A stretch of 64,000 nucleotides of DNA from the IMG/VR virus record IMGVR_UViG_3300032116_000155, positions 1 to 64,000 of that record; one strand, 5' to 3'. This document shows, one piece after another, positions 1-64,000 of the stretch. The stretch's first letter is position 1, and each line of letters opens with the position of its first letter. This stretch comes from a virus. The position numbers and the translations under genes were made by a program. The notes beneath the pieces are model-generated. The model was given only the letters and a program-made list of their open reading frames with translations, was not told where the DNA came from and did no database searches.

Positions 1-144
1 GACTGAAACACCGACTGAAACGCCAACAGCTACACCGACTGAAACACCGACTGAAACGCCAACAGCTACACCGACTGAAACACCGACTGAAACACCAACA
101 GCTACACCGACTGAAACACCGACTGAAACGCCAACAGCTACACC
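1..144 (+). repeat. Tandem 36-bp repeat, four copies, in frame
   Basis: Copies lie at 1-36, 37-72, 73-108 and 109-144 and are identical except one synonymous change in copy 3 (acg to aca). Each encodes [12 protein letters not shown]. Near-identity at the DNA level implies recent expansion or gene conversion, and the copy number may vary. The array probably continues left of the window. Confidence 0.97.
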
Positions 145-925
145 GACTTTACCTGATGAAGGATTTTTGTTACAAGAGGATTATTTCATGATATTACAGG
201 AGGACGGTTTCGGAATTTACATCGAGCCATTACAATTAACACCAACGGCAACACCAACAGTAACCCCAACACCATCAACAACACCGTCGTTGGTGACTTC
301 AGGTCTAATTATACAGTTAGATGCATATACTTCGGAAAGTTACCCTGGTAGTGGAACTACTGTTGTAAACATGGTAACTCCAGGAACTTATGATCACACT
401 CTTAATGGTGCAACATTTACAACACTGAATACTATCAAGTGTTTTGATTGTACGGCAGGTACTCAAAGGGTTGTTGTAAATGGAACTGGTCCTACATTAC
501 CCACCACAGGATACACATATATTACTTGGGCTAGATTAGAACCTAATCCAACATACTTTAGGACATTACTTTATACAAACTCACCCAAATATACACCAAT
601 TACAGTCCCTAATGGAACAGATACATTAGGATATTGGGATATCGCGTTCAGAAGTTCAGGATATGATTTATCAGGACAAACTAGTGTTTGGGTTCAATAT
701 GCGGTAGTGGGGACAAACTCGTCTCAAAGATTCTATATAAATGGTTCCGAGGTTGGAAGTCCAATTGCCTTTGGTGCGGGTGGAACAACGCATTGGGGTT
801 GGGGTAATAATGATATTGTTCCTCAGGCTTGGGGATATGTTGCTAACATGTATTTCTACAATAGACAATTATCACTTTCTGAAATCACACAACAATATAA
901 TTTCTTGTTACCAAGATTCGTATAA
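1..925 (+). CDS. Pro-Thr repeat fibre/adhesin with C-terminal LamG-like domain (5' partial)
   Basis: The reading frame is open from base 2, so the gene begins before the window; about 307 codons are visible. The first 48 codons are four copies of the 12-residue unit [13 protein letters not shown] short linker and a second Pro-Thr tract (about residues 80-98) follow. The remaining roughly 200 residues look like a LamG/concanavalin-A-like jelly roll: GLIIQLDA at the start and YVANMYFYNRQLSLSEI near the end are typical of the first and last strands. Such domains bind glycans and are common at the tips of phage fibres and bacterial adhesins, so I infer a host-surface-binding tail fibre with a mucin-like stalk. 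A TTG at 167 could be read as a start but lies inside the continuous frame. The gene is followed at once by a TATTTATA element for the next gene. Confidence 0.75.
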   Translation, partial: TETPTETPTATPTETPTETPTATPTETPTETPTATPTETPTETPTATPTLPDEGFLLQEDYFMILQEDGFGIYIEPLQLTPTATPTVTPTPSTTPSLVTSGLIIQLDAYTSESYPGSGTTVVNMVTPGTYDHTLNGATFTTLNTIKCFDCTAGTQRVVVNGTGPTLPTTGYTYITWARLEPNPTYFRTLLYTNSPKYTPITVPNGTDTLGYWDIAFRSSGYDLSGQTSVWVQYAVVGTNSSQRFYINGSEVGSPIAFGAGGTTHWGWGNNDIVPQAWGYVANMYFYNRQLSLSEITQQYNFLLPRFV

Positions 926-1655: not shown

Positions 1656-2906
1656 ATGAAAATTTTTATACAGGTAGCCTCATATCGTGATCCACAATTA
1701 ATACTAACAATTAAAAGTGCTATTGAAAACGCTAAGTCCCCCGAAAACTTAGTTTTTTCTATTGCCAGGCAATTTCATCCTGATGATAAATTTGATGATT
1801 TATCAGAATACAAAAATGATGATAGGTTTAAAATTTTAAGCATACCATATGATGAAACGAAAGGGGTTTGTTGGGCCAGAAACTTGACTCAGCAACAATA
1901 TGACGGTGAAAAATACACTCTACAGATAGATTCACATATGAGGTTTGCCCAAAATTGGGACGAAATTCTGATTGAAATGTTAGAAGACCTTATTTCTGAT
2001 GGATATAAAAAGCCATTACTAACAACATATGTTCCATCATTTGATCCTGATAACGATCCTGGCGGTAGGGTAAATTCTCCTTGGAGAATGTCTTTTGATA
2101 GGTTTATCCCTGAAGGTGCCATTTTTTTCTTGCCTGAGACAATACCTAATTTTGAAAAATTAACAAAACCAGTTCCGGCTAGGTTTTATTCCGCTCATTT
2201 TTGTTTTACTTTAGGCCAATTCGCTGTTGAGGTTCAACATGACCCAAGATTTTATTTTCACGGTGAAGAAATATCTATCGCGGTTAGGGCTTTTACTCAT
2301 GGTTATGATTTATTTCATCCACACAAAATTGTTATGTGGCATGAATATACTAGAAAGGGTAGGACTAAGCAATGGGATGACGATAAAACTTGGGGGGAAA
2401 AAAACAAAAACTCACACCTGTTAAACAGAAAATTGTTTAGTATGGATGGCGAAAAATATGATGAAGATCTATTTAGAGAGTTTGGTTTTGGTACGCAAAG
2501 AACATTAAGAGATTATGAAAAATATGCAGGTATATTGTTTGAAAAACGAGCAGTCCAGCAAGAAACTTTGGATAAAAGATATCCTCCAAACACATACAAC
2601 TATAACTCAGAAGAAGAATGGAAAGATTCTTTTGCTAGCATATTTAAACATTGCATTGATCTATATAAAGATAGTGTACCTTATAAGGATTATGACTTTT
2701 GGGTTGTTGCATTTCATGACGACGATGGTAATACAATTATTAGGTTAGATGCAAACAAAGATGAGGTTACTAGAATAATGTCAAGTAAAGATAATTTTTA
2801 CAAAATATGGCGTGAATTTCCAACGACACATAAACCTGCTTATTGGGTCGTATGGCCGCATTCTGAATCAAAAGGATGGTGTGAAAAAATAGAAGGTCGT
2901 TTATGA
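1656..2906 (+). CDS. GlcNAc-transferase family glycosyltransferase (PF11397 / GT60-like)
   Basis: 416 residues. The N-terminus IFIQVASYRDPQLILTIKSA, then WARNLTQQQYDGEKYTLQ, then the metal-binding DSH motif in IDSHMRFAQNWDE (about residue 92) are the hallmarks of the GlcNAc family that includes Dictyostelium Skp1 hydroxyproline GlcNAc-transferase and protist polypeptide alpha-GlcNAc transferases acting on Thr/Pro-rich mucins. The likely donor is UDP-GlcNAc or a related UDP-sugar, with a protein acceptor by family analogy. No signal peptide or membrane segment is visible, so it should act in the host cytoplasm. It is the first gene of a tightly coupled operon: its stop overlaps the next ATG as ATGA. 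Donor, acceptor and partners are inference; the family call is secure. Confidence 0.85.
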   Translation: MKIFIQVASYRDPQLILTIKSAIENAKSPENLVFSIARQFHPDDKFDDLSEYKNDDRFKILSIPYDETKGVCWARNLTQQQYDGEKYTLQIDSHMRFAQNWDEILIEMLEDLISDGYKKPLLTTYVPSFDPDNDPGGRVNSPWRMSFDRFIPEGAIFFLPETIPNFEKLTKPVPARFYSAHFCFTLGQFAVEVQHDPRFYFHGEEISIAVRAFTHGYDLFHPHKIVMWHEYTRKGRTKQWDDDKTWGEKNKNSHLLNRKLFSMDGEKYDEDLFREFGFGTQRTLRDYEKYAGILFEKRAVQQETLDKRYPPNTYNYNSEEEWKDSFASIFKHCIDLYKDSVPYKDYDFWVVAFHDDDGNTIIRLDANKDEVTRIMSSKDNFYKIWREFPTTHKPAYWVVWPHSESKGWCEKIEGRL

Positions 2907-3478
2907 ATTTAACTGTAGTAATTTGCCACTATAAAGAAAATTTAGACTGGGTTGAAAGATTAGTTCATAACCATGTTGTATATAATAAAAATCAAGAAAA
3001 AAGAGATTATTTTAAATATAATCTGGATAATTACGGATTTGACACTATTGCTTATATAACATACGTGGTTGATAACTATGATAGTTTGCCGGACTATATT
3101 TGTTTCTCGCAAGATAACCCATTTTATCACTGTGGTAACTTTTTAGAAAAAGTAAATAATTTTGATTTTAAAACAGAATACCTCCCTCTTGGGGCCACAT
3201 ATTTTAGAGATAATGCACAAATAATTGACAAATCAATCAATTACGCAAAAGAAATTGGTTTAGAAATAACACTGCCTATAAAATTTATAAACTCAGCACA
3301 ATGTATTGTTAGCAAAAATTTAATTTTAAAAAACGATTTAGAATTGTATAAAAAAATATTAAATTCTTACCATAAAAATAAGGTGATAACTGATCTAAAT
3401 TACACGATAGAATATCTGTGGCCATCAATCTTTCACTTTAATAATGAATTAAATATATCGTTAACAAATTGCCAATGA
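2903..3478 (+). CDS. DUF3431-like glycosyltransferase-associated protein
   Basis: 191 residues. The opening TVVICHYKENLDWVERL, the middle VDNYDSLPDYICFSQDNPF and a following His (YHC) match the pattern of DUF3431 proteins, found in fungi, algae, giant viruses and bacterial glycan loci and thought to be glycosyltransferase-like. The reaction is unknown. The start ATG overlaps the upstream TGA by four bases and the stop overlaps the next start the same way, so translation is coupled. Its place among four other glycosyltransferases supports a glycan-building role. Confidence 0.6.
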   Translation: MNLTVVICHYKENLDWVERLVHNHVVYNKNQEKRDYFKYNLDNYGFDTIAYITYVVDNYDSLPDYICFSQDNPFYHCGNFLEKVNNFDFKTEYLPLGATYFRDNAQIIDKSINYAKEIGLEITLPIKFINSAQCIVSKNLILKNDLELYKKILNSYHKNKVITDLNYTIEYLWPSIFHFNNELNISLTNCQ

Positions 3479-4281
3479 AAAAAGCATTAATAGGTTTATC
3501 TAATAATATAGAAAATAACTTTCAAAAAATAAAAAATTGGGCTTTAAGCTTTAAAGAACACTCTGATGCTGACATAATTTTATTATGTGCAAATTCAACA
3601 AATGATGACTTGCAAAAAGTCTTAAATTTAGGGGTAATAGCTATTCCCGTAGTAATAGAAGACACTTGGTTCATAAACCATAAAAGATTAATAAAAACTG
3701 CTGAATATATTAGAGATTGCAAATATGAATTAATCTTAATAACAGATGTTTTTGATGTTATTTTTCAATCAGATCCTTTTTCTAGATTAGATACATCTTA
3801 CGATATCTTTGTTGGAGGCGAAGGAATACTTGTTAGTGACGAACCTTGGAACTCTGATAATATCAATAAGTTATTTCCTCAGGATTATGCCAAATGTACA
3901 AATACTGAAATTATTTGTTCAGGAGTTATCGCCGGTAAAAAAGAACCTTTGGTTGATTTGTTAATGAATATGTATGAGTTGTGCGAAAATTCATCAAATA
4001 ATCACAATATAAAAGACCAGGCAGCACTAATTGTTTTGTTCTCTAAAAATCTAATTCCAAACATTAAGCTGATGACTCTAAATGATTGTTGGGCTGTTCA
4101 TTGTGCTGTCGCCGGACCTACTCAATTTTTCGAAGCTTGGGGCTTTAAACAAAAATTAAGATATAAAATTCCTCATCTTAAAGACGGTAAAATTTATTCT
4201 GACGAAAAAACGTTTGATATTGTTCACCAATTTAATAGGATCCCAGAATGGAATGAAATATTAACTAAAAAATATGAATAA
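3475..4281 (+). CDS. GT-A type glycosyltransferase (PLOD-like)
   Basis: 268 residues from the ATG at 3475, which overlaps the preceding stop as ATGA; an in-frame TTG at 3469 is a less likely start. The segment ELILITDVFDVIFQSDP (about residues 82-98) contains the TDxxD arrangement that binds metal and nucleotide-sugar in GT-A folds, and EIICSGVIAG then KDQAALIVLFS resemble the later blocks of collagen-type and PLOD-like glycosyltransferases. The C-terminal HQFNR is also typical. No membrane segment is visible. The donor sugar cannot be told from sequence. Third gene of the cassette; its stop region overlaps the next ATG by eight bases. Confidence 0.65.
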   Translation: MKKALIGLSNNIENNFQKIKNWALSFKEHSDADIILLCANSTNDDLQKVLNLGVIAIPVVIEDTWFINHKRLIKTAEYIRDCKYELILITDVFDVIFQSDPFSRLDTSYDIFVGGEGILVSDEPWNSDNINKLFPQDYAKCTNTEIICSGVIAGKKEPLVDLLMNMYELCENSSNNHNIKDQAALIVLFSKNLIPNIKLMTLNDCWAVHCAVAGPTQFFEAWGFKQKLRYKIPHLKDGKIYSDEKTFDIVHQFNRIPEWNEILTKKYE

Positions 4282-5032
4282 TACTTGTTACGGTGCTTGC
4301 TTTACACCTGAGACATATAAAGCTTACATTGATTGGTGGAGTAATTTCCCAAAAGAAAAAAAATTAAATATTATCTTAGATAATTCTAGACTGCAAAATA
4401 TAGAATATGAGTCTTTTCAATATACCGAAAATGATATAAGGTATAACTTTAATTTTAAGCACGGTGTTAGTCGTGGCCACTACTGGAATCATCATGGTAA
4501 TCGCAATATCATTTGGTTTTATGCTTATTTAAGGATGATTAACTTTTATATTAAGAATAAAGATTATGATTATTATTGGTTTTTTGATGATGACGTATAC
4601 TGTAACAACTGGGATTTATTTCTTTCCGGGTTTGAAAATGACAATACTGACTTCTTGAGCTATTTTCTCTTTAAAAACAAAGATGTTTTAGCATACAATA
4701 ATGTACCTATGGTAGATAATAAAATGCATTCAGGGGGAGACTGGTTTTCTAGGTTTCCTGGGCATACAGATACATTAGAACCAAATAGCACACAATTATT
4801 CGGATCTTTTTTTGCTATTATTAGATTTTCTAATAAGGCATTAGAACATATTGTTAATTTAACAGAAAAAGATTATTTTGGTTACGGTGAAGGCTTTGTT
4901 CCAACATCATTAGCGAATGTCAATATGTCTATGGGATCCATATTTAATCCTGATAATACATCAAATTATTTTGATGTTAATAAAGTAAATGTAACACATA
5001 AAAATCAAAAAATAACTTGGGAATGGCTATGA
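4274..5032 (+). CDS. Putative glycosyltransferase with FDDDV motif
   Basis: 252 residues. Near residue 105 the string YYWFFDDDVYCNN resembles a GT-A DxD motif preceded by aromatic residues. The N-terminal CFTPETYKAYIDWW and the later GSFFAIIRFS and FGYGEGFVPTSLAN fit a nucleotide-sugar transferase with an acceptor-binding second half. I do not recognise the exact family. Cassette position (ATGA coupling to the next gene) and DxD motif support the call. Alternative: an inactive GT-like protein. Confidence 0.55.
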   Translation: MNNTCYGACFTPETYKAYIDWWSNFPKEKKLNIILDNSRLQNIEYESFQYTENDIRYNFNFKHGVSRGHYWNHHGNRNIIWFYAYLRMINFYIKNKDYDYYWFFDDDVYCNNWDLFLSGFENDNTDFLSYFLFKNKDVLAYNNVPMVDNKMHSGGDWFSRFPGHTDTLEPNSTQLFGSFFAIIRFSNKALEHIVNLTEKDYFGYGEGFVPTSLANVNMSMGSIFNPDNTSNYFDVNKVNVTHKNQKITWEWL

Positions 5033-5817
5033 ATAAACCTGTAATTGTTACAGCATTATATGATATTGGAAGAGATAACTGGGATAATTTTAAAATGTCT
5101 TACCATACGTACTGTTGGTGGATGCGTAATACATTATCCATCGATAATAATATAGTTATATATACAGAAGAAAAATTTGTAAATGATATCGAAACGTATA
5201 GAAAAGAGTTTGACCCACAATTAGTAAAAACTAAAATTATTGTAAATGATTTAAAAGATCTTGATGCGTATGTAATTCACTACAATAAATTAAATGCATT
5301 AATGAATGATTCATTGTTCAAATCTAAAGTTAGCTTTCCAGATGTACCTGAAATGTGTAAGCCATTATATAATATTATAATGTTCAATAAGATATATTTT
5401 ATACATGAGGCAATAAAAAATAATTATTTCGAAAATGATTGTGTTATATGGGCCGATGCTGGGGGATTAAGAGAGGATGTTGATCATTATAGAGGTAGTA
5501 ATTGGCCTAACTTAGATAAGTTATCTAATATGCCTGAAAAAATAATATTTTTTAGTCATAATAACGATTTCACAATACATGATAAAGAATTTTATTCTAT
5601 GTCTCAAATACGTAATTTACAAGGCACTTGTTTTATTGTGCCATCAAAATATATATCATTTCTAATAGAAGAGTTTAATAAAGCTGTTGAATCGTCTATT
5701 TTATCTGGATTTATTGGTAGTGATGAAAAAATGTTCGATATTTGCTACATAGAAAATAAAGATATGTTTTATCTTATAAAATCTTCATGGCGAGAATATT
5801 TTGATATTTTAAAATAA
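5029..5817 (+). CDS. HtrL/WlaTC-family glycosyltransferase-like protein
   Basis: 262 residues from the ATG at 5029, which overlaps the upstream TGA (ATGA); the in-frame TTG at 5017 is rejected as a start. VTALYDIGRDNWDNF at the N-terminus, YNKIYFIHEA-type helices and WADAGGLRED near residue 142 match the HtrL/YibB/WlaTC family found in LPS and capsule loci. The reaction is not firmly established in the family. Last gene of the five-gene cassette. No hairpin terminator is obvious before the TATTTATA element of the next gene. Confidence 0.6.
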   Translation: MNKPVIVTALYDIGRDNWDNFKMSYHTYCWWMRNTLSIDNNIVIYTEEKFVNDIETYRKEFDPQLVKTKIIVNDLKDLDAYVIHYNKLNALMNDSLFKSKVSFPDVPEMCKPLYNIIMFNKIYFIHEAIKNNYFENDCVIWADAGGLREDVDHYRGSNWPNLDKLSNMPEKIIFFSHNNDFTIHDKEFYSMSQIRNLQGTCFIVPSKYISFLIEEFNKAVESSILSGFIGSDEKMFDICYIENKDMFYLIKSSWREYFDILK

Positions 5818-6270: not shown

Positions 6271-6750
6271 ATGGCAAATTCTCGTAAATATTCACTAACA
6301 AATACAGGTTCAACTCTTTTATACTTTAGTTATGTTAGAAGCTCAGATCAAATGGTGTTTGATCAAGTATGCCTTAATCCTGGCGAAACTAAAAACATTT
6401 GGTTTATTGATAATACATTTAAAACTGCAAATCAATTAAGTGATTTTGTCATTGTTGATTACGGACCTTTCCCGACAACGCCAACACCAACGGTCAGTCC
6501 AACTCCAACAGCGACACCAACGGCAACGCCAACACCAACGGTTAGTCCAACTCCAACAGCAACACCAACGGAAACGCCAACACCAACGGTCAGTCCAACT
6601 CCAACAGCTACGCCTACGGAAACTCCAACAGCTACGCCTACAGAAACTCCAACAGCTACGCCTACGGAAACTCCAACAGCTACGCCTACGGAAACTCCAA
6701 CAGCTACGCCTACAGGAACTCCAACACCAACACCTACACCAACGCCATAA
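6271..6750 (+). CDS. Short protein with mucin-like Pro-Thr repeat tail
   Basis: 159 residues. A globular N-terminal part (about 68 residues, with [20 protein letters not shown] and [11 protein letters not shown] suggesting a small beta domain) is followed by about 90 residues of Pro-Thr repeats that run to the stop. No distal adhesive domain follows. Three 16-residue units [15 protein letters not shown](A/E) precede four 8-residue units TPTATPT(E/G) and a TPTPTPTP end. The repeats carry many Thr next to Pro, the classic context for O-glycosylation. Possible roles: a stalk truncated by repeat recombination, a bristle-like decoration, or a donor of repeat modules to other fibre genes. It uses its own TATTTATA element and is closed by a strong terminator. 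Confidence 0.6.
6478..6747 (+). repeat. Nested 48-bp and 24-bp Pro-Thr coding repeats
   Basis: 48-bp units lie at 6478-6525, 6526-6573 and 6574-6621; 24-bp units at 6622-6645, 6646-6669, 6670-6693 and 6694-6717. The 24-bp unit equals the second half of the third 48-bp unit, so the short array looks derived from it. The same 16-residue motif appears at the right edge of the window. Confidence 0.95.
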
Positions 6751-39317: not shown

Positions 39318-40256
39318 ATGATAACATTATTAAATGAAAGGTTTACAGATAATGAAGATGGTGCAAAGATCCATTTTTATTATAATGGAGATCCTATTTA
39401 TGCACAATCTTTATGGGTTGATTGTGCGACAGGCATGACAATTATTGCAAATAATTGGGAATTATCTGAGGGTTATTTTTATTGGATAGGAATACCTCCT
39501 AAGTTTTCAAATAACTTGCAAGATACTAAACTTATTTTTAATAAAAATCTTGGTGAGTTTAAAATAAAATTGGGCGGCAAAAGTAGGCCTATGTTTTATT
39601 GTGATGAAAAATTACAAATTAAATATTTAAGTGATGATGAAACTTTTGGGACTTATTATGAAGTAATCTTATCTGAAATATATAATTTTGGAAATGTTAA
39701 AATACAACCTAATGACATAGTATTAGATATTGGTGCAAACTATGGGTTATTTTCTTTGTATGCTTCGAGTAGGAGTGCTAACAAAATTTATTCATTTGAA
39801 CCATCGATTCCTGTTTATAATTTACTTGTTGAAAACGTGAGTATTAATAATAATATTATACCAATTAATAAGGCTGTTAGCGAATTCGACGGTTATGCTG
39901 AATTTAATAATACTAAAACAACAGCATGTTCATATGTGTCAGGTACATTCCCTTCAGATGAACAAATAATTAGTAAAAGCAACGTCGAAACAATAAACAT
40001 AAATACTATTTTTTCAAGCTATAGCCTTGATTTTGTTGATTTTGCTAAGATAGATTGCGAGGGTTCTGAATTAGATATATTCTTAACAATTACCGATGAA
40101 AATCTTAACAAGATTAATAAATTCGTTATAGAATATCATACACAAAGTATTGGTCAATTTATTTTATCAAAATTGGTTAAAAATGGATTTAAAATTGAAT
40201 CTTCAAACGAGATATCAAACAATACAGGTCTAATATATGCGTACAAAAAAAACTAA
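39318..40256 (+). CDS. FkbM-family methyltransferase with N-terminal extension
   Basis: 312 residues. The N-terminal 120 residues (MITLLNERFTDNEDG onward) look like a separate beta domain; residues about 135-300 hold the SAM fold: DIVLDIGANYGLFSLYA, IYSFEPSIPVYNLL, NKAVSEFDGYAEF and FAKIDCEGSELDIFL, with the canonical KIDCEGSE motif. It likely O-methylates a sugar. It lies between UvsX (4-base gap) and the nuclease gene (overlap of 20 bases), so it rides in the replication operon as a moron. The N-terminus again carries a Leu-Asn-Glu segment. Confidence 0.82.
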   Translation: MITLLNERFTDNEDGAKIHFYYNGDPIYAQSLWVDCATGMTIIANNWELSEGYFYWIGIPPKFSNNLQDTKLIFNKNLGEFKIKLGGKSRPMFYCDEKLQIKYLSDDETFGTYYEVILSEIYNFGNVKIQPNDIVLDIGANYGLFSLYASSRSANKIYSFEPSIPVYNLLVENVSINNNIIPINKAVSEFDGYAEFNNTKTTACSYVSGTFPSDEQIISKSNVETININTIFSSYSLDFVDFAKIDCEGSELDIFLTITDENLNKINKFVIEYHTQSIGQFILSKLVKNGFKIESSNEISNNTGLIYAYKKN

Positions 40257-57928: not shown

Positions 57929-58837
57929 ATGGCAATTGGAACATATGGAACGATTAGAGGTGCGGATGTATCACCGGAAGATGTCGATATAATTTTACAT
58001 TATACACCATCAAGAGATTCTACTGATAATTTTGTTTTAAAATCTTTAGATGCTAAAACAATATTGCGACCTTATTTTAATAATCAAAATACAGGGGGTA
58101 ATGCAAATATTGAAATTCTTGGGGGGTTATATAATTTAACCCTACCTTCAACAGAATTTAATGCGTTAGGAATATATACAATGTATATTAGACCGGCACA
58201 GATTAGAACAACTATTAATGATTGTGGAGTTTTATCTGCTTTGCCTAACGTAAAAGGTATAATAATTAATTTAGATACGGTACCATCTCAATTTAGAAAT
58301 AAATTCATAGCCCAGGGTTTAGTAGGTTACAGGGTTGAGTATTTAAATACGGATGGTAGTAAAATTCCAAATTTTTTCAGAGTAATAACATCTAATTTCT
58401 TTTGTGAGCCTGTAACACAAAATTTAACAAACACATCACAGAAAGCTATAAGGTATAGATATGTTGAAGGTGTAACAAATTTAGTTTTTTGCACATTAAC
58501 CCCATCTTCGGCTCCGACTAATAAACCAAACGCGACACCGTTTATTGGGCAGCCGAATCAAAGTATTATATTAACTAATACATTTTTTAATCCTATAACT
58601 TTAGACATTGAATTAGTTGATCAGGATATTTCAACATTGGGTATAGCACTATATGGTAATCAAACAAAATCGATTGATGATGGTATATATACAATATATG
58701 ATAACCAAAACAATATATACAAACAGTATAATTTATACGAAGTAAGAGATGGGTTCAATACGTTATTATATGAAGTAAGACAGGACAGAGGTAATAATAT
58801 TGATTTTAGTAAAAACTTTTCAACTATAACACAATAA
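57929..58837 (+). CDS. Structural protein upstream of gpI-like protein, unknown
   Basis: 302 residues, beta-rich. MAIGTYGTIRGADVSPEDVD and DIILHYTPSRDSTDNFVL at the start, then MYIRPAQIRTTINDCGVLSA look like a virion protein of the baseplate rim. A Thr/Pro-containing linker (LTPSSAPTNKPNATPFI, about 190-206) separates a small C-terminal beta domain that contains ILTNTFFNPITLDIELVD. TAATG coupling to the next gene. Confidence 0.45.
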   Translation: MAIGTYGTIRGADVSPEDVDIILHYTPSRDSTDNFVLKSLDAKTILRPYFNNQNTGGNANIEILGGLYNLTLPSTEFNALGIYTMYIRPAQIRTTINDCGVLSALPNVKGIIINLDTVPSQFRNKFIAQGLVGYRVEYLNTDGSKIPNFFRVITSNFFCEPVTQNLTNTSQKAIRYRYVEGVTNLVFCTLTPSSAPTNKPNATPFIGQPNQSIILTNTFFNPITLDIELVDQDISTLGIALYGNQTKSIDDGIYTIYDNQNNIYKQYNLYEVRDGFNTLLYEVRQDRGNNIDFSKNFSTITQ

Positions 58838-61821
58838 TGTCTAGACCATTTTACAAATATCCACCAGTACCTTCAAGCGGTGCTGGTACTTTTTCAGATG
58901 AGATCGTTGGGTTACAACTTGTAACTGGCGGAGGCTTGACTTTAGCTAACTTCCAGTTTACAACATCTTTAAGTGAAAAGATTAATACTAATTTTAATAT
59001 TGGAGCATTTTCTGATCCGATATCGTTAGACACTTTGAATATTGAGACTATAGCAGAATCTAAAGCGATAATCTCAAAAGAATTTAGAGTTTACCCGAAT
59101 TTTGACTTATCTGAAATATCTAGTTTTGTATTATATGGCCCGTTAACAAAACGACTTTCGACTTCAGTCACTAAGATTATAAATTATTTTCCTGGGGCTC
59201 TAGAAGTTTCGTATATAAATAATTTAGCGATATCTGGATATACAGCTATAGATGCGATCTATGATAGTGTTGATGATAGTACAACTTTCAAGGTTGATAT
59301 TGAAAAAATAAGTAATCCTTTTTCAGTTGATTTTACAACTAATTCAGCAATTAATATTGGTGCATTAGAATTTGAGGTATCATATTTAAGAAACCTAGCA
59401 AAAGAATATTCAAAATATTCTTTATATATAAACGATCTAGAGTTCCCCCTATTATATTTGGAACCTACACCTAGTTTGTTTACCGGATTTTTAGAGTTAA
59501 CAGTAAAAGGAAATCCTTTTTCGGGCCAAGTTACTTCGTTAGAATATCTTGTCATTAGGCCTAATGATTTTTATGCTGACAAAGCATTCATAGAGCCTTT
59601 TGATGAGATACAGCAGTACTTGTTAAATAGGCTAATAATTCCTAAGTATACTGCTAATTTCCAGATTCCGAAGCAAACGGATGATGGGTTATTTTATACA
59701 GATTTCGACAGTGTAACCTGGCCATTATTAGGGGTTTGGAATTTAGATATACAAACAGCTTCGTTTGATTACTATATAAGTAGGCTTAGTGATATAGCAG
59801 ACTCATTTGATTCTTTTAAAACTAATTTAGTATCTAGATTTTTAACAACACAATCGTTTAAAGATTTTGATACCTCAGATCAAAGAGTTCAAAAGTTATT
59901 AACCATATATGGTAGAAGCTTTGATGAGGTAAAAAAGTTTATTGATGCGTTAGCTCACATTACCTCAGTTAATTATGTTGTTAAAAATGATATTCCTTCT
60001 CAATTACTAAAGAATTTAGCACAAACTTTGGGATGGAATATCAATATATCACCAATAACAAATGATGATTTTTTAAATTCTATTTTTAACACATCATCTA
60101 AAATTGAATACCCAGGATTTTCCAGGGCGAATACACCAACAGAGTTAAATTATCAGTTTTATCGGAACTTGATAATGAATTCTGCTTATTTGTTTAAATC
60201 TAAGGGAACAAGACGTTCAATTGAATTTATGCTTAGGCTTGTTGGGGCACCAGAGGCTCTAGTTGAATTTAATGAACATATTTACATTGCCGGAGAAAGA
60301 ATAAATATGTCATCTTTCGGTCAGCAGTTTTCGCAAATAAGTGGATCTACTTATATACAACAGATACCAATATATGATAGTGGGTCAACTTTTAGCATTT
60401 TAGGTGTTAAATATAGTGCGTTTACAACTACTAATGTTGTTAACAATGTCATTGTTTTCCGTGAAAATTATCCGGTAGATGATGAAGGCTTCCCTAAAGC
60501 TCCAACAGAATCTAATAACTATTTTTTCCAGCAAGGTGCTGGTTGGTATGAACTAACAAAGGACCATCAAAGTCCTTTGATTATCAATACATCCGATAGT
60601 ACTTTCACAGGTAATTCATTTAATTTAAAAGCTGAATTTCAACCATTTACTTACGGACAAAAATACTTAGAGAGGTTTAGGAATTTTCCTTATATGACAT
60701 TAGGTTACAATATAAGTAAAATAACAGATAACAAGAAAAGTTGGGTTAATACTGATACGGATGTTAGACTTGGAACGAAAGGTAGTAATTATGATGCCTA
60801 TTACCGAATTTCTAATGAAAAATTGGTATTGAATGTTAAGAATACGGACATTTTCTTAAAGCCATCACAAGGCCTTGAGTACGATGTGTGGTATATGTCT
60901 AACAATTTTAATTACCCTATACCATCTACCGGGTTAACATCACCATATCCTGAACCTGGAGGTATTGATTGGACGGTAATAAACCCTATGCCTAGCAAAA
61001 AATCATTTTTTGAATTTGCTCAGTCATTTTGGTTTAACATGATCAATGTTAGAAACCGTCAATTCATTAATGACGGTAAAACTGGTGGCTATCCTACATT
61101 ACAGTCATTATGGTGGAAGTATATTGAATCAGACGTTAAAGTTAATATACCTAATGATAACTATACATATCAAACTATGATTGATTACATCAATGGTTTA
61201 GGTACGTATTGGATTAGGCTTGTTGAACAAATGGTTCCTGCTACAACAATTTGGATGGGGGGGGCAAAATTTGATAACTCAATATTTCATAGACAAAAAT
61301 TTGTTTATAGATTACAGAGGGGTTGCAGAATATTGCCATTACCTTGTGATCCAGATGTTATTAACACATTTTTATTCCCTTCGACATGTGTAAATGAAAA
61401 TATAGAACCATATATATTTCCTTGGGATAATGAAAATAACGCAGTATCTTCATTTAAGGATGTGTTATATACGGTTGTTACTAATTATCTGGATGAGCAA
61501 TCAATTAACTTAAGTGGGTGTGTTGAGAATACGATAATATCGACTTGGTTTATGGACATTAGATATGACAATGTTCCAATTTTACAAAAAGAAATATATA
61601 CGGGTTACGGTTTTAATGATGTGCCATCTAATAACCTATGGCTAACAACTCTACAAACTTATTTACCGGATATATTGACTAGTTATGGGTTAGGAGTAAT
61701 ATTTAATATTGACATAGATAAACCAACAATATTTATTTACAATTTAGGTTGTGATCCTAACTTTTTAAATAAAGAATTTGAATTGAATGTAGGTATTCAA
61801 TTCTCAATAAGATGTGATTAA
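58837..61821 (+). CDS. Baseplate protein with tail-protein-I-like domain
   Basis: 994 residues. The central region LAQTLGWNINISPITNDDFL, then LNYQFYRNLIMNSAYLFKSK and GTRRSIEFMLRLVGAPEALV (about 395-480) is the pattern of P2 gpI / wedge proteins to which fibres attach: KSKGTRRSIEFMLRL is the key block. The C-terminal WWKYIESDVKVNIPNDNYTY and LVEQMVPATTIWMGGAKFDN is typical of baseplate proteins of large Bacteroidota phages as I recall them. Likely the outer wedge that holds the SprB-like fibre encoded next, with which it shares a TAATG junction. Confidence 0.65.
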   Translation: MSRPFYKYPPVPSSGAGTFSDEIVGLQLVTGGGLTLANFQFTTSLSEKINTNFNIGAFSDPISLDTLNIETIAESKAIISKEFRVYPNFDLSEISSFVLYGPLTKRLSTSVTKIINYFPGALEVSYINNLAISGYTAIDAIYDSVDDSTTFKVDIEKISNPFSVDFTTNSAINIGALEFEVSYLRNLAKEYSKYSLYINDLEFPLLYLEPTPSLFTGFLELTVKGNPFSGQVTSLEYLVIRPNDFYADKAFIEPFDEIQQYLLNRLIIPKYTANFQIPKQTDDGLFYTDFDSVTWPLLGVWNLDIQTASFDYYISRLSDIADSFDSFKTNLVSRFLTTQSFKDFDTSDQRVQKLLTIYGRSFDEVKKFIDALAHITSVNYVVKNDIPSQLLKNLAQTLGWNINISPITNDDFLNSIFNTSSKIEYPGFSRANTPTELNYQFYRNLIMNSAYLFKSKGTRRSIEFMLRLVGAPEALVEFNEHIYIAGERINMSSFGQQFSQISGSTYIQQIPIYDSGSTFSILGVKYSAFTTTNVVNNVIVFRENYPVDDEGFPKAPTESNNYFFQQGAGWYELTKDHQSPLIINTSDSTFTGNSFNLKAEFQPFTYGQKYLERFRNFPYMTLGYNISKITDNKKSWVNTDTDVRLGTKGSNYDAYYRISNEKLVLNVKNTDIFLKPSQGLEYDVWYMSNNFNYPIPSTGLTSPYPEPGGIDWTVINPMPSKKSFFEFAQSFWFNMINVRNRQFINDGKTGGYPTLQSLWWKYIESDVKVNIPNDNYTYQTMIDYINGLGTYWIRLVEQMVPATTIWMGGAKFDNSIFHRQKFVYRLQRGCRILPLPCDPDVINTFLFPSTCVNENIEPYIFPWDNENNAVSSFKDVLYTVVTNYLDEQSINLSGCVENTIISTWFMDIRYDNVPILQKEIYTGYGFNDVPSNNLWLTTLQTYLPDILTSYGLGVIFNIDIDKPTIFIYNLGCDPNFLNKEFELNVGIQFSIRCD

Positions 61822-64000
61822 TGGCAGCATATAATGTATCTATAACGGGTGATTGTAGTAATATGAGTTCTGGGGCAATAACTCTTGCTCCTCTATTTGG
61901 CGTACCACCATATACAATTGATTGGCAGAACCCATCGTTAAGTGCGGATACATCTGTAACACAATCAACTAGAACAGGTCTGTCCGCTGGAACATACAGT
62001 ATTTTAGTAACAGATTCAACGACACCAGATAATCAATATTTAAATGTTCTTATACATGTATCTTCAGGTGTTTGTGCTTCAATAGTTTCAAATGTTGAGG
62101 CAACATGTGGTAATGATAATGGCACATTAACTGTGTCGGCGACTACACCATATAATCCGGTTTCTTGTTATCTTTATGAATACGATGGAACATCATCTGG
62201 AACTTATATTACGTCTGCGACAACCTCGAATACATATACATTTAATGGGTTAGCCTCTGGGTTATATTATGTAGAAATTATTGATGGAGGAGGGTGTAGT
62301 GGTTCTACAGGCACTTGCGTAATAGAAACAACACCTGTGTTTGATTTCGGAATATACTCAGTAGGTAATGCTGGTTGCACTAATGAACTAACAGGTGCTT
62401 TAATTGTAACAGGGTTAACGGCAACTGGCCCAGTTACATACTTATGGAGCAATGGTGAAATAACACCGTCAATAACAGGATTAACAGCCGGTGTTTATAG
62501 TGTAACGATTACAGATTTAAATGGCTGTTCGATAACAAAAAGCGGTACTGTTGTAACTGAAGATCCTTTGGGCTTGGTTGGTATAACAACTATTTCACCT
62601 ACATGTTTTAATTCGGATGGAATCATTACTGTTAATATATCAGGAGGCACAGCACCATATTATTATCAGTTATCTAATGGATATAGTGAAATAACATACT
62701 TAACAACAAAAACTTTTGATAATTTAAGTTCGGGAGTGTACACAATTACTGTGCAAGACGCAGCATTTTGCAGTGATAGTCAAACAGTTCAGTTACTAAC
62801 ACCTAATGCGTTTAATTCTGTTTCTGTTGTAAAGTCAAACTCTATTTGTGGTTTAAATAATGGTTCGATAACCATTAGTGCGGATGGGGGTAATGTGCCT
62901 TATACCTTTTTATTAATTGGTCCTAATTTTAGTACACAAACTTTTGTTGGTTATCCCTCACATACTTTTTCTGGCCTAGAGTCTGGGACATATACTGTTA
63001 GTATTTCAAATCCAGGAGGTTGCGAATATGTAGAAATAGTTGAAATAGATAATCAGCCATTATTTAATTATAATGTTTCTGTTACAGGAATATCTTGTAA
63101 TAGTAAATTTGGTGTGGTTAAAATTGATGTTGATACGCCTGGGCTATATACGTATCAGCTTGGCCCCCAAGTTATCTCAAATACGAGTCAACAGAGTGTT
63201 ACTTTTACTAACTTATTGGCCGGAATATATACTTTATTTATAGAAAATGCCGATCCTAATCAGCCAAAATGTGCGGTATCTCAGCAGGTTTCAATAATAA
63301 AAACACCTAATTTACAGTATTCTTTAGTACCCACAGAATGTGGCTTAGGTGGTGATGGTACAATTACAGCTCTAATCACAACAGGAACTCCCCCATTTAC
63401 ATTTGAATGGTCTCCTAATGTTAATGGTCAGACTGGAATATATGTTACCAATTTAACGGCAGGAACATATAGTGTTAAAATAACAGATGCTAATTCATGT
63501 TCTGTCACAAAAACAACTTTAATCAAATGTTCTGATTATATTACATCATCATATTCGTTATATAATGTATCTCAGGCTACATTTGAGACGAATGATAATA
63601 CCATTCTTAGTTTAGAGAAGATGCTAGGGGATGGCTATTTGCAATTAACTAGTGGTGAAACAGGTTGTTATCTTTCAAAAGCAGACTTTTTTGTTTTAGT
63701 AACAGTTGGTGGTACTGGATATACTGGCAGTAGTTTTTACACAAGTACATCATTATCTAATTATCCTACAAATCAACAATATATAAATGCTTTAGAGACA
63801 CTAGTTGAAACAATACCTGGAATAGGTTCGATATCCATTAATGGTAATAATCTACAAATTTCTAGTGATTGTCAAAAAGAACTTACGGATAAAAATATAA
63901 AAATAGATGTATTAATACAATATGAAGTTTGTTGCCAACAACCGTTACCAACACCTACCGAGACTCCAACGCCTACGGTTAGTCCTACGCCTACGACGAG
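61821..64000 (+). CDS. SprB-like repeat tail fibre with Pro-Thr tract (3' partial)
   Basis: Open from the ATG at 61821 to the window end, 726 codons so far. Seven repeats of about 80 residues share the ending LxAGxYxVxIxDxxxC: LSAGTYSILVTDS (~54), LASGLYYVEIIDGGGCS (~143), LTAGVYSVTITDLNGCS (~221), LSSGVYTITVQDAAFCS (~302), LESGTYTVSISNPGGC (~386), LLAGIYTLFIENADPN (~465), LTAGTYSVKITDANSCS (~545). This is the SprB-repeat pattern of Flavobacterium gliding adhesins. A different domain follows (about 570-700), then [18 protein letters not shown] enters a Pro-Thr tract cut by the window. It directly follows the gpI-like protein, so I infer a long host-binding fibre. Confidence 0.8.
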   Translation, partial: MAAYNVSITGDCSNMSSGAITLAPLFGVPPYTIDWQNPSLSADTSVTQSTRTGLSAGTYSILVTDSTTPDNQYLNVLIHVSSGVCASIVSNVEATCGNDNGTLTVSATTPYNPVSCYLYEYDGTSSGTYITSATTSNTYTFNGLASGLYYVEIIDGGGCSGSTGTCVIETTPVFDFGIYSVGNAGCTNELTGALIVTGLTATGPVTYLWSNGEITPSITGLTAGVYSVTITDLNGCSITKSGTVVTEDPLGLVGITTISPTCFNSDGIITVNISGGTAPYYYQLSNGYSEITYLTTKTFDNLSSGVYTITVQDAAFCSDSQTVQLLTPNAFNSVSVVKSNSICGLNNGSITISADGGNVPYTFLLIGPNFSTQTFVGYPSHTFSGLESGTYTVSISNPGGCEYVEIVEIDNQPLFNYNVSVTGISCNSKFGVVKIDVDTPGLYTYQLGPQVISNTSQQSVTFTNLLAGIYTLFIENADPNQPKCAVSQQVSIIKTPNLQYSLVPTECGLGGDGTITALITTGTPPFTFEWSPNVNGQTGIYVTNLTAGTYSVKITDANSCSVTKTTLIKCSDYITSSYSLYNVSQATFETNDNTILSLEKMLGDGYLQLTSGETGCYLSKADFFVLVTVGGTGYTGSSFYTSTSLSNYPTNQQYINALETLVETIPGIGSISINGNNLQISSDCQKELTDKNIKIDVLIQYEVCCQQPLPTPTETPTPTVSPTPTT
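63942..64000 (+). repeat. Start of another Pro-Thr coding repeat tract
   Basis: Codes [18 protein letters not shown], the same motif set ([11 protein letters not shown]) as the array at 6478-6747. Truncated by the window end. Confidence 0.85.

Follow-up and report, generated by a model that had tools for sequence, protein, structure and literature searches.

A putative phage tail arm with seven SprB-type repeats, a shared end domain and apparently exchangeable tips

We analysed a window of 64,000 bases (bases 1–64,000 of a 67,460-base linear virus record) in which the last gene, with a probability that we put at roughly two in three, encodes a phage tail arm (fibre shaft) of fixed length with exchangeable tips. 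The encoded protein of 966 amino acids begins with seven SprB-type units and an end domain of about 135 residues; a Thr/Pro linker then leads to a tip domain of about 185 residues at the C-terminus. Its open reading frame lies on the plus strand at 61821–64721 of the record; the start agrees with that given in an earlier, sequence-only reading, the window ends at residue 726, and the frame extends beyond it to base 64721. That reading had described a tail fibre made of seven repeats of the type found in the gliding adhesin SprB, and had proposed a profile search, a structure prediction and a comparison with host repeats as checks.

The count of seven held: seven units were delimited over residues 1–573, each supported by an HMM of the other six. 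R1 (61821–62075, residues 1–85), R2 (62076–62351, residues 86–177) and R3 (62352–62582, residues 178–254) were defined by this cross-unit HMM, the unit tree and the structure model. R4 (62583–62825, residues 255–335) is the best PF13573 match among the units and was placed by that profile and the cross-unit HMM, R5 (62826–63074, residues 336–418) by the PF13573 scan of the record and the cross-unit HMM, and R6 (63075–63323, residues 419–501) by the latter. R7 (63324–63539, residues 502–573), delimited by the cross-unit HMM and per-unit conservation, shows the highest conservation among the units. The alpha/beta end domain follows at 63540–63941 (residues 574–707), and the translation shows the first part of the Thr/Pro-rich linker at 63942–64000, the whole linker covering approximately residues 708–785, beyond the window. 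All these features are on the plus strand.

Homology of the repeats to SprB repeats is supported by several lines of evidence. The SprB repeat profile (PF13573) scored 86.2 bits against the 966-aa protein, with a curated gathering cut-off of 28; it matched at four places in the whole record, two of them individually above the cut-off, and nowhere in 14 control genomes. All 10 relatives tested passed the same cut-off. Scored against the HMM of the other six, each unit reached 30–61 bits, while none of 2,000 shuffles of a unit scored above 18; the alignment contained all seven units, which makes for a mild leak in these scores. Each unit carries two cysteines, the second in the '..D..GC' end motif, conserved at 0.99 and 0.85 in the profile-aligned phage units and at 0.98 and 0.98 in 1,564 Bacteroidota units. 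The profile result, these signature cysteines and a predicted fold closest to that of GhpA together bear out the assignment to the SprB type.

Across 33 phages, the near-invariant cysteine pairs of R1–R7 are residues 12/85, 96/159, 186/236, 262/317, 343/401, 426/484 and 507/560, and further near-invariant cysteines stand at residues 570, 616 and 705. Disulfide bonds between units may be possible, because the paired cysteines of an Ig-type sandwich may sit at opposite ends.

An AlphaFold2 run on the core, from an alignment of 33 cores, gave the predicted structure: seven beta-sandwiches and an alpha/beta end, with a mean pLDDT of 82.7 and a pTM of 0.40, so that this model does not predict how the units are arranged along the rod. 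The top PDB matches were pieces of GhpA (9flp, 9fly and 9flw, E 1e-18 to 1e-16, the best 1.4e-18), a Bacteroidota protein with the same repeat type, which the core sequence profile recovered as well (E 9.8e-7). Ranking below GhpA were many kinds of Ig and FN3 arrays, which this type of fold would lead one to expect. Among viral proteins, the UniProt entry A0A6J5LD72 matched best (Foldseek E 1.3e-59).

A single-sequence search of viral contigs with the whole protein found no relatives; these were reached instead through the upstream gene and then through a core alignment. The latter yielded 236 related IMG/VR viral contigs, of which the best 80 were fetched; some contigs are near-copies from overlapping samples, and at an identity of 85% the cores number 37. 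Exactly seven units were counted in 89 of 90 complete phage proteins, and eight in the remaining one. In non-redundant cores the unit lengths are nearly constant (R4, for example, has 81–82 residues in 33 phages), and mean pairwise identity is 45–58% per unit, meaning that the array is evenly conserved. INPHARED contained two distant matches only, both in huge metagenomic phages. An assembly chimera was considered and ruled out, since tens of independent contigs contain the same two genes side by side.

The gene directly upstream (58837–61821, plus strand) encodes a baseplate-region protein of about 994 residues, described from its relatives, gene order and hhalign; it has 17 relatives in IMG/VR. 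In every locus of this protein with enough downstream sequence, the seven-unit protein is the next gene. Conversely, in most of 93 loci the seven-unit gene is immediately preceded by a gene for about 994 residues, and in 70 loci the two overlap by one base. The block just upstream holds baseplate genes, among them a gp25/TssE-like gene and a baseplate assembly gene (TIGR02243, E 8.6e-14). The seven-unit gene thus stands in a baseplate/fibre block, in line with the tail fibre of the sequence-only reading, and from this gene order we infer that its product belongs to the phage tail. That reading had also placed the gene after a gpI-like fibre-attachment protein. A conserved upstream protein is indeed there; its gpI-like character is putative, judged by position and by eye, and the P2 gpI families match only 1 of 28 members each, weakly (Tail_P2_I, PF09684, E 0.16; TIGR02242, E 0.21).

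The two neighbouring proteins share more than their position. At its C-terminus the upstream protein has a stretch of about 140 residues that is related by homology to the arm's end domain; for the final 95 residues or so of this protein and of the core, hhalign gave a probability of 95 and E 1.7e-8, against 0.1 for a control region. The models of both show the order helix-strand-strand-helix-strands in this domain. In viral loci the end domain is confined to the upstream ORFs of about 994 residues and to the seven-unit ORFs, and it was absent from 79 bacterial loci. The model of the upstream protein is poor (pLDDT 55), and its fold search gave nothing significant. Its end domain taken separately resembles parts of contractile-tail proteins (Mu, Kp7, A-1(L), Bas63) at a weak Z of 3.5–4.9, a lead only. 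The end domain could be a baseplate dock, because the upstream protein has it too.

Behind the end domain, the relatives diverge. Among 90 cores there is no extension in 65, a short one in 2 and a long one in 23; the long extensions differ from each other, and many stand behind a Thr/Pro linker. In the record studied, the gene just after the 966-aa ORF has the same C-terminal domain (69% identity). The tip domain that is fused in the window phage has an ORF of its own in relatives, placed one or two genes farther downstream, and in most carriers it lies at the very end of its ORF. We infer that the end domain marks the point where exchangeable tips join a constant arm. One such tip domain, at L182:4431–5420, sits on a different N-terminal domain and appears from its sequence to be a mobile tip module; its ORF lies next to a gene for a YibB-like glycosyltransferase and to a fibre gene similar to those in the window record.

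Thr/Pro-rich linkers occur in or after the arm gene in 46 of 93 related loci. At 1656–5817 the window holds a glycosyltransferase-like cluster (PF11397 GlcNAc-transferase, 222 bits; DUF3431; HtrL_YibB, 89 bits), flanked by Thr/Pro-rich genes at 2–925 and 6271–6750. The phage may glycosylate its own linkers. Two FkbM-type methyltransferase genes lie at 19699–20379 and 39318–40256. Both record ends (L005:6842–8661 and window 1–925) fall in repetitive fibre-like genes, with the repeats GTSGTSGSSG and, adjoining a Laminin_G_3 domain, TETPTETP; because of this placement, the genome probably continues across an assembly break.

The host of this uncultured, contractile-tailed phage probably belongs to the Bacteroidota. 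Every lineage named in the titles of the 79 bacterial loci is from that phylum, and the DNA polymerase is nearest to those of Salinibacter phages (22–24%). Shine-Dalgarno-like tetramers precede 3 of 38 genes, not above the background rate of 10.8%, and the leaders are A-rich; few such motifs with A-rich leaders are usual in Bacteroidota. The Bacteroidota -33/-7 promoter motif showed no enrichment, with 5 occurrences against an expectation of 4.5. A search for the upstream gene in 395 sampled Bacteroidota genomes, run without a positive control, came back empty and gave no prophage or MAG host link.

To compare phage and host repeats, we set 231 phage units (33 phages) against 1,564 host units. 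For all 231, the best match was the unit at the same position in another phage, and for none was it a host unit; when same-position matches were limited to those below 50% identity, they were still best for 228. Host units, in ORFs with at least five of them, found their best match inside their own protein in 550 of 1,536 cases. In a tree of 162 units, based on 77 columns only, so that the deep branching order is unresolved, each of R1–R7 forms one clade of 11 with support of 84–99, and the split between phage and host takes 2 changes, versus 54 in shuffles. Given these position-specific clades and same-position best matches, the phage array is old and frozen. The suggestion that modules are exchanged with the host is not supported by this comparison: unit number and order are frozen, every position has its own phage clade, and the absence of host best matches speaks against recent exchange with host sprB. 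The idea that the phage recently took up parts of host sprB and that exchange between phage and host genes goes on could draw on the fact that all cellular relatives kept are Bacteroidota and that the best unit identities to the host are 38–50%, but given the clades and the best matches we regard it as extremely improbable.

Under the fixed-arm reading, the upstream protein and the arm would be made together, given the overlap of their genes by one base, and would then assemble together. The seven units would serve as a spacer whose length is set by their number. The end domain would form a joint for tips that are either covalently fused, as in the window phage, or separate proteins from the next genes. 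Host recognition would lie mainly in these exchangeable tips, and the repeat type would be an old acquisition from surface proteins of Bacteroidota that was multiplied by duplication to seven copies and has since been inherited as a unit. The contrast within the protein suggests that tips rather than repeats carry out specific binding, because the array is evenly conserved and the parts behind it are variable.

The sequence data leave room for two other roles. The seven repeats themselves might bind a host or environmental polysaccharide, mimicking the host adhesin, with the tips secondary. The repeat family is common to Bacteroidota adhesins, 65 of the 90 cores have no tip of their own, and in flavobacteria gliding-machinery proteins matter for adsorption, SprB and RemA being named as possible phage receptors (PMC13288928). 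The latter leaves mimicry as a conceivable role. The frozen number and order of the units and their even conservation are, however, unlike a part under host-range selection, and many relatives have tip domains in the next genes, so we consider this reading unlikely; even a conserved array, though, could bind a surface glycan that is widespread. Less probable again is a whisker or decoration protein of the neck, sheath or collar in place of a baseplate arm. The core profile does match the Sf11 neck whiskers protein gp24 (9occ, E 4e-5) and phage decoration proteins, among which Ig-like domains are common. Yet these solved structures are matched over one unit each, and the gene order, the one-base overlap and the end domain held in common with a baseplate-block protein point to the baseplate.

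If the fixed-arm reading is right, a host adhesin module has become a constant component of a phage tail, present in a set number, in a widespread family with sequence records. More tentatively, and at somewhat less than even odds, a standard seven-module arm of host-adhesin repeats may define a large lineage of Bacteroidota phages with contractile tails, in which a new shared end domain links the arm to a baseplate protein and carries unrelated receptor-binding tips. The seven-unit rule, the end domain in two neighbouring genes and the swapped tips would offer a testable picture of how Bacteroidota are reached and recognized by these phages.

In the open-access literature we found no paper linking SprB repeats to phages and none on this family. 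Databases already list the family, though under a name assigned automatically, since one of its members is A0A6J5LD72 ('SprB repeat [uncultured Caudovirales phage]'). This protein of 714 aa is 36% identical along the entire core and differs in having no tip extension. With the SprB-repeat proteins of Bacteroidota, the phage protein has in common the unit homology, the two cysteines and the beta-sandwich array. It differs in that R1 begins at residue 1 (MAAYNVSITGDC), with no signal peptide and no hydrophobic N-terminus by eye, in its other end domain, and in a C-terminus formed by the tip domain and not by a T9SS sorting domain. A T9SS signal from TIGR04183 (Por_Secre_tail; 24 bits, cut-off 23) was rejected, as the match lies inside R7 (residues 533–568). 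Because signal peptide and sorting domain are missing, the phage protein is not an SprB orthologue. Its gene lies outside any gliding operon, adjoins baseplate-region and fibre genes and has no sprC, sprD or sprF neighbours, and host SprB-type ORFs in the fetched loci have up to 62 units, whereas the phage protein is fixed at seven. A separate case is LR756502, a 642-kb metagenomic phage, where a 1,670-aa SprB-type protein (L183:6474–11483) begins with what looks like a signal peptide, has a sorting domain of T9SS type B (TIGR04131, 50 bits) and resembles a host-style secreted adhesin on a huge-phage record.

The nearest solved relative, by fold and by sequence profile, is GhpA (grappling hook protein A of Aureispira sp. 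CCB-QB1), a cellular bacterial protein of 5,898 residues with 17–22% identity. The nearest precedent is found in crAss-like gut phages, whose BACON arrays likewise bring a domain of Bacteroidetes host type into the tail region, one lineage having a stable, position-specific array of eight BACON domains that arose via duplication (PMC6949934). BACON is a different domain family in other phages, with no described shared end domain or swappable tips, and PF13004 gave no Pfam match in the 966-aa protein up to E 0.1. Beside these arrays, the seven-unit arm would be a clean case of ancient domain capture without continuing exchange.
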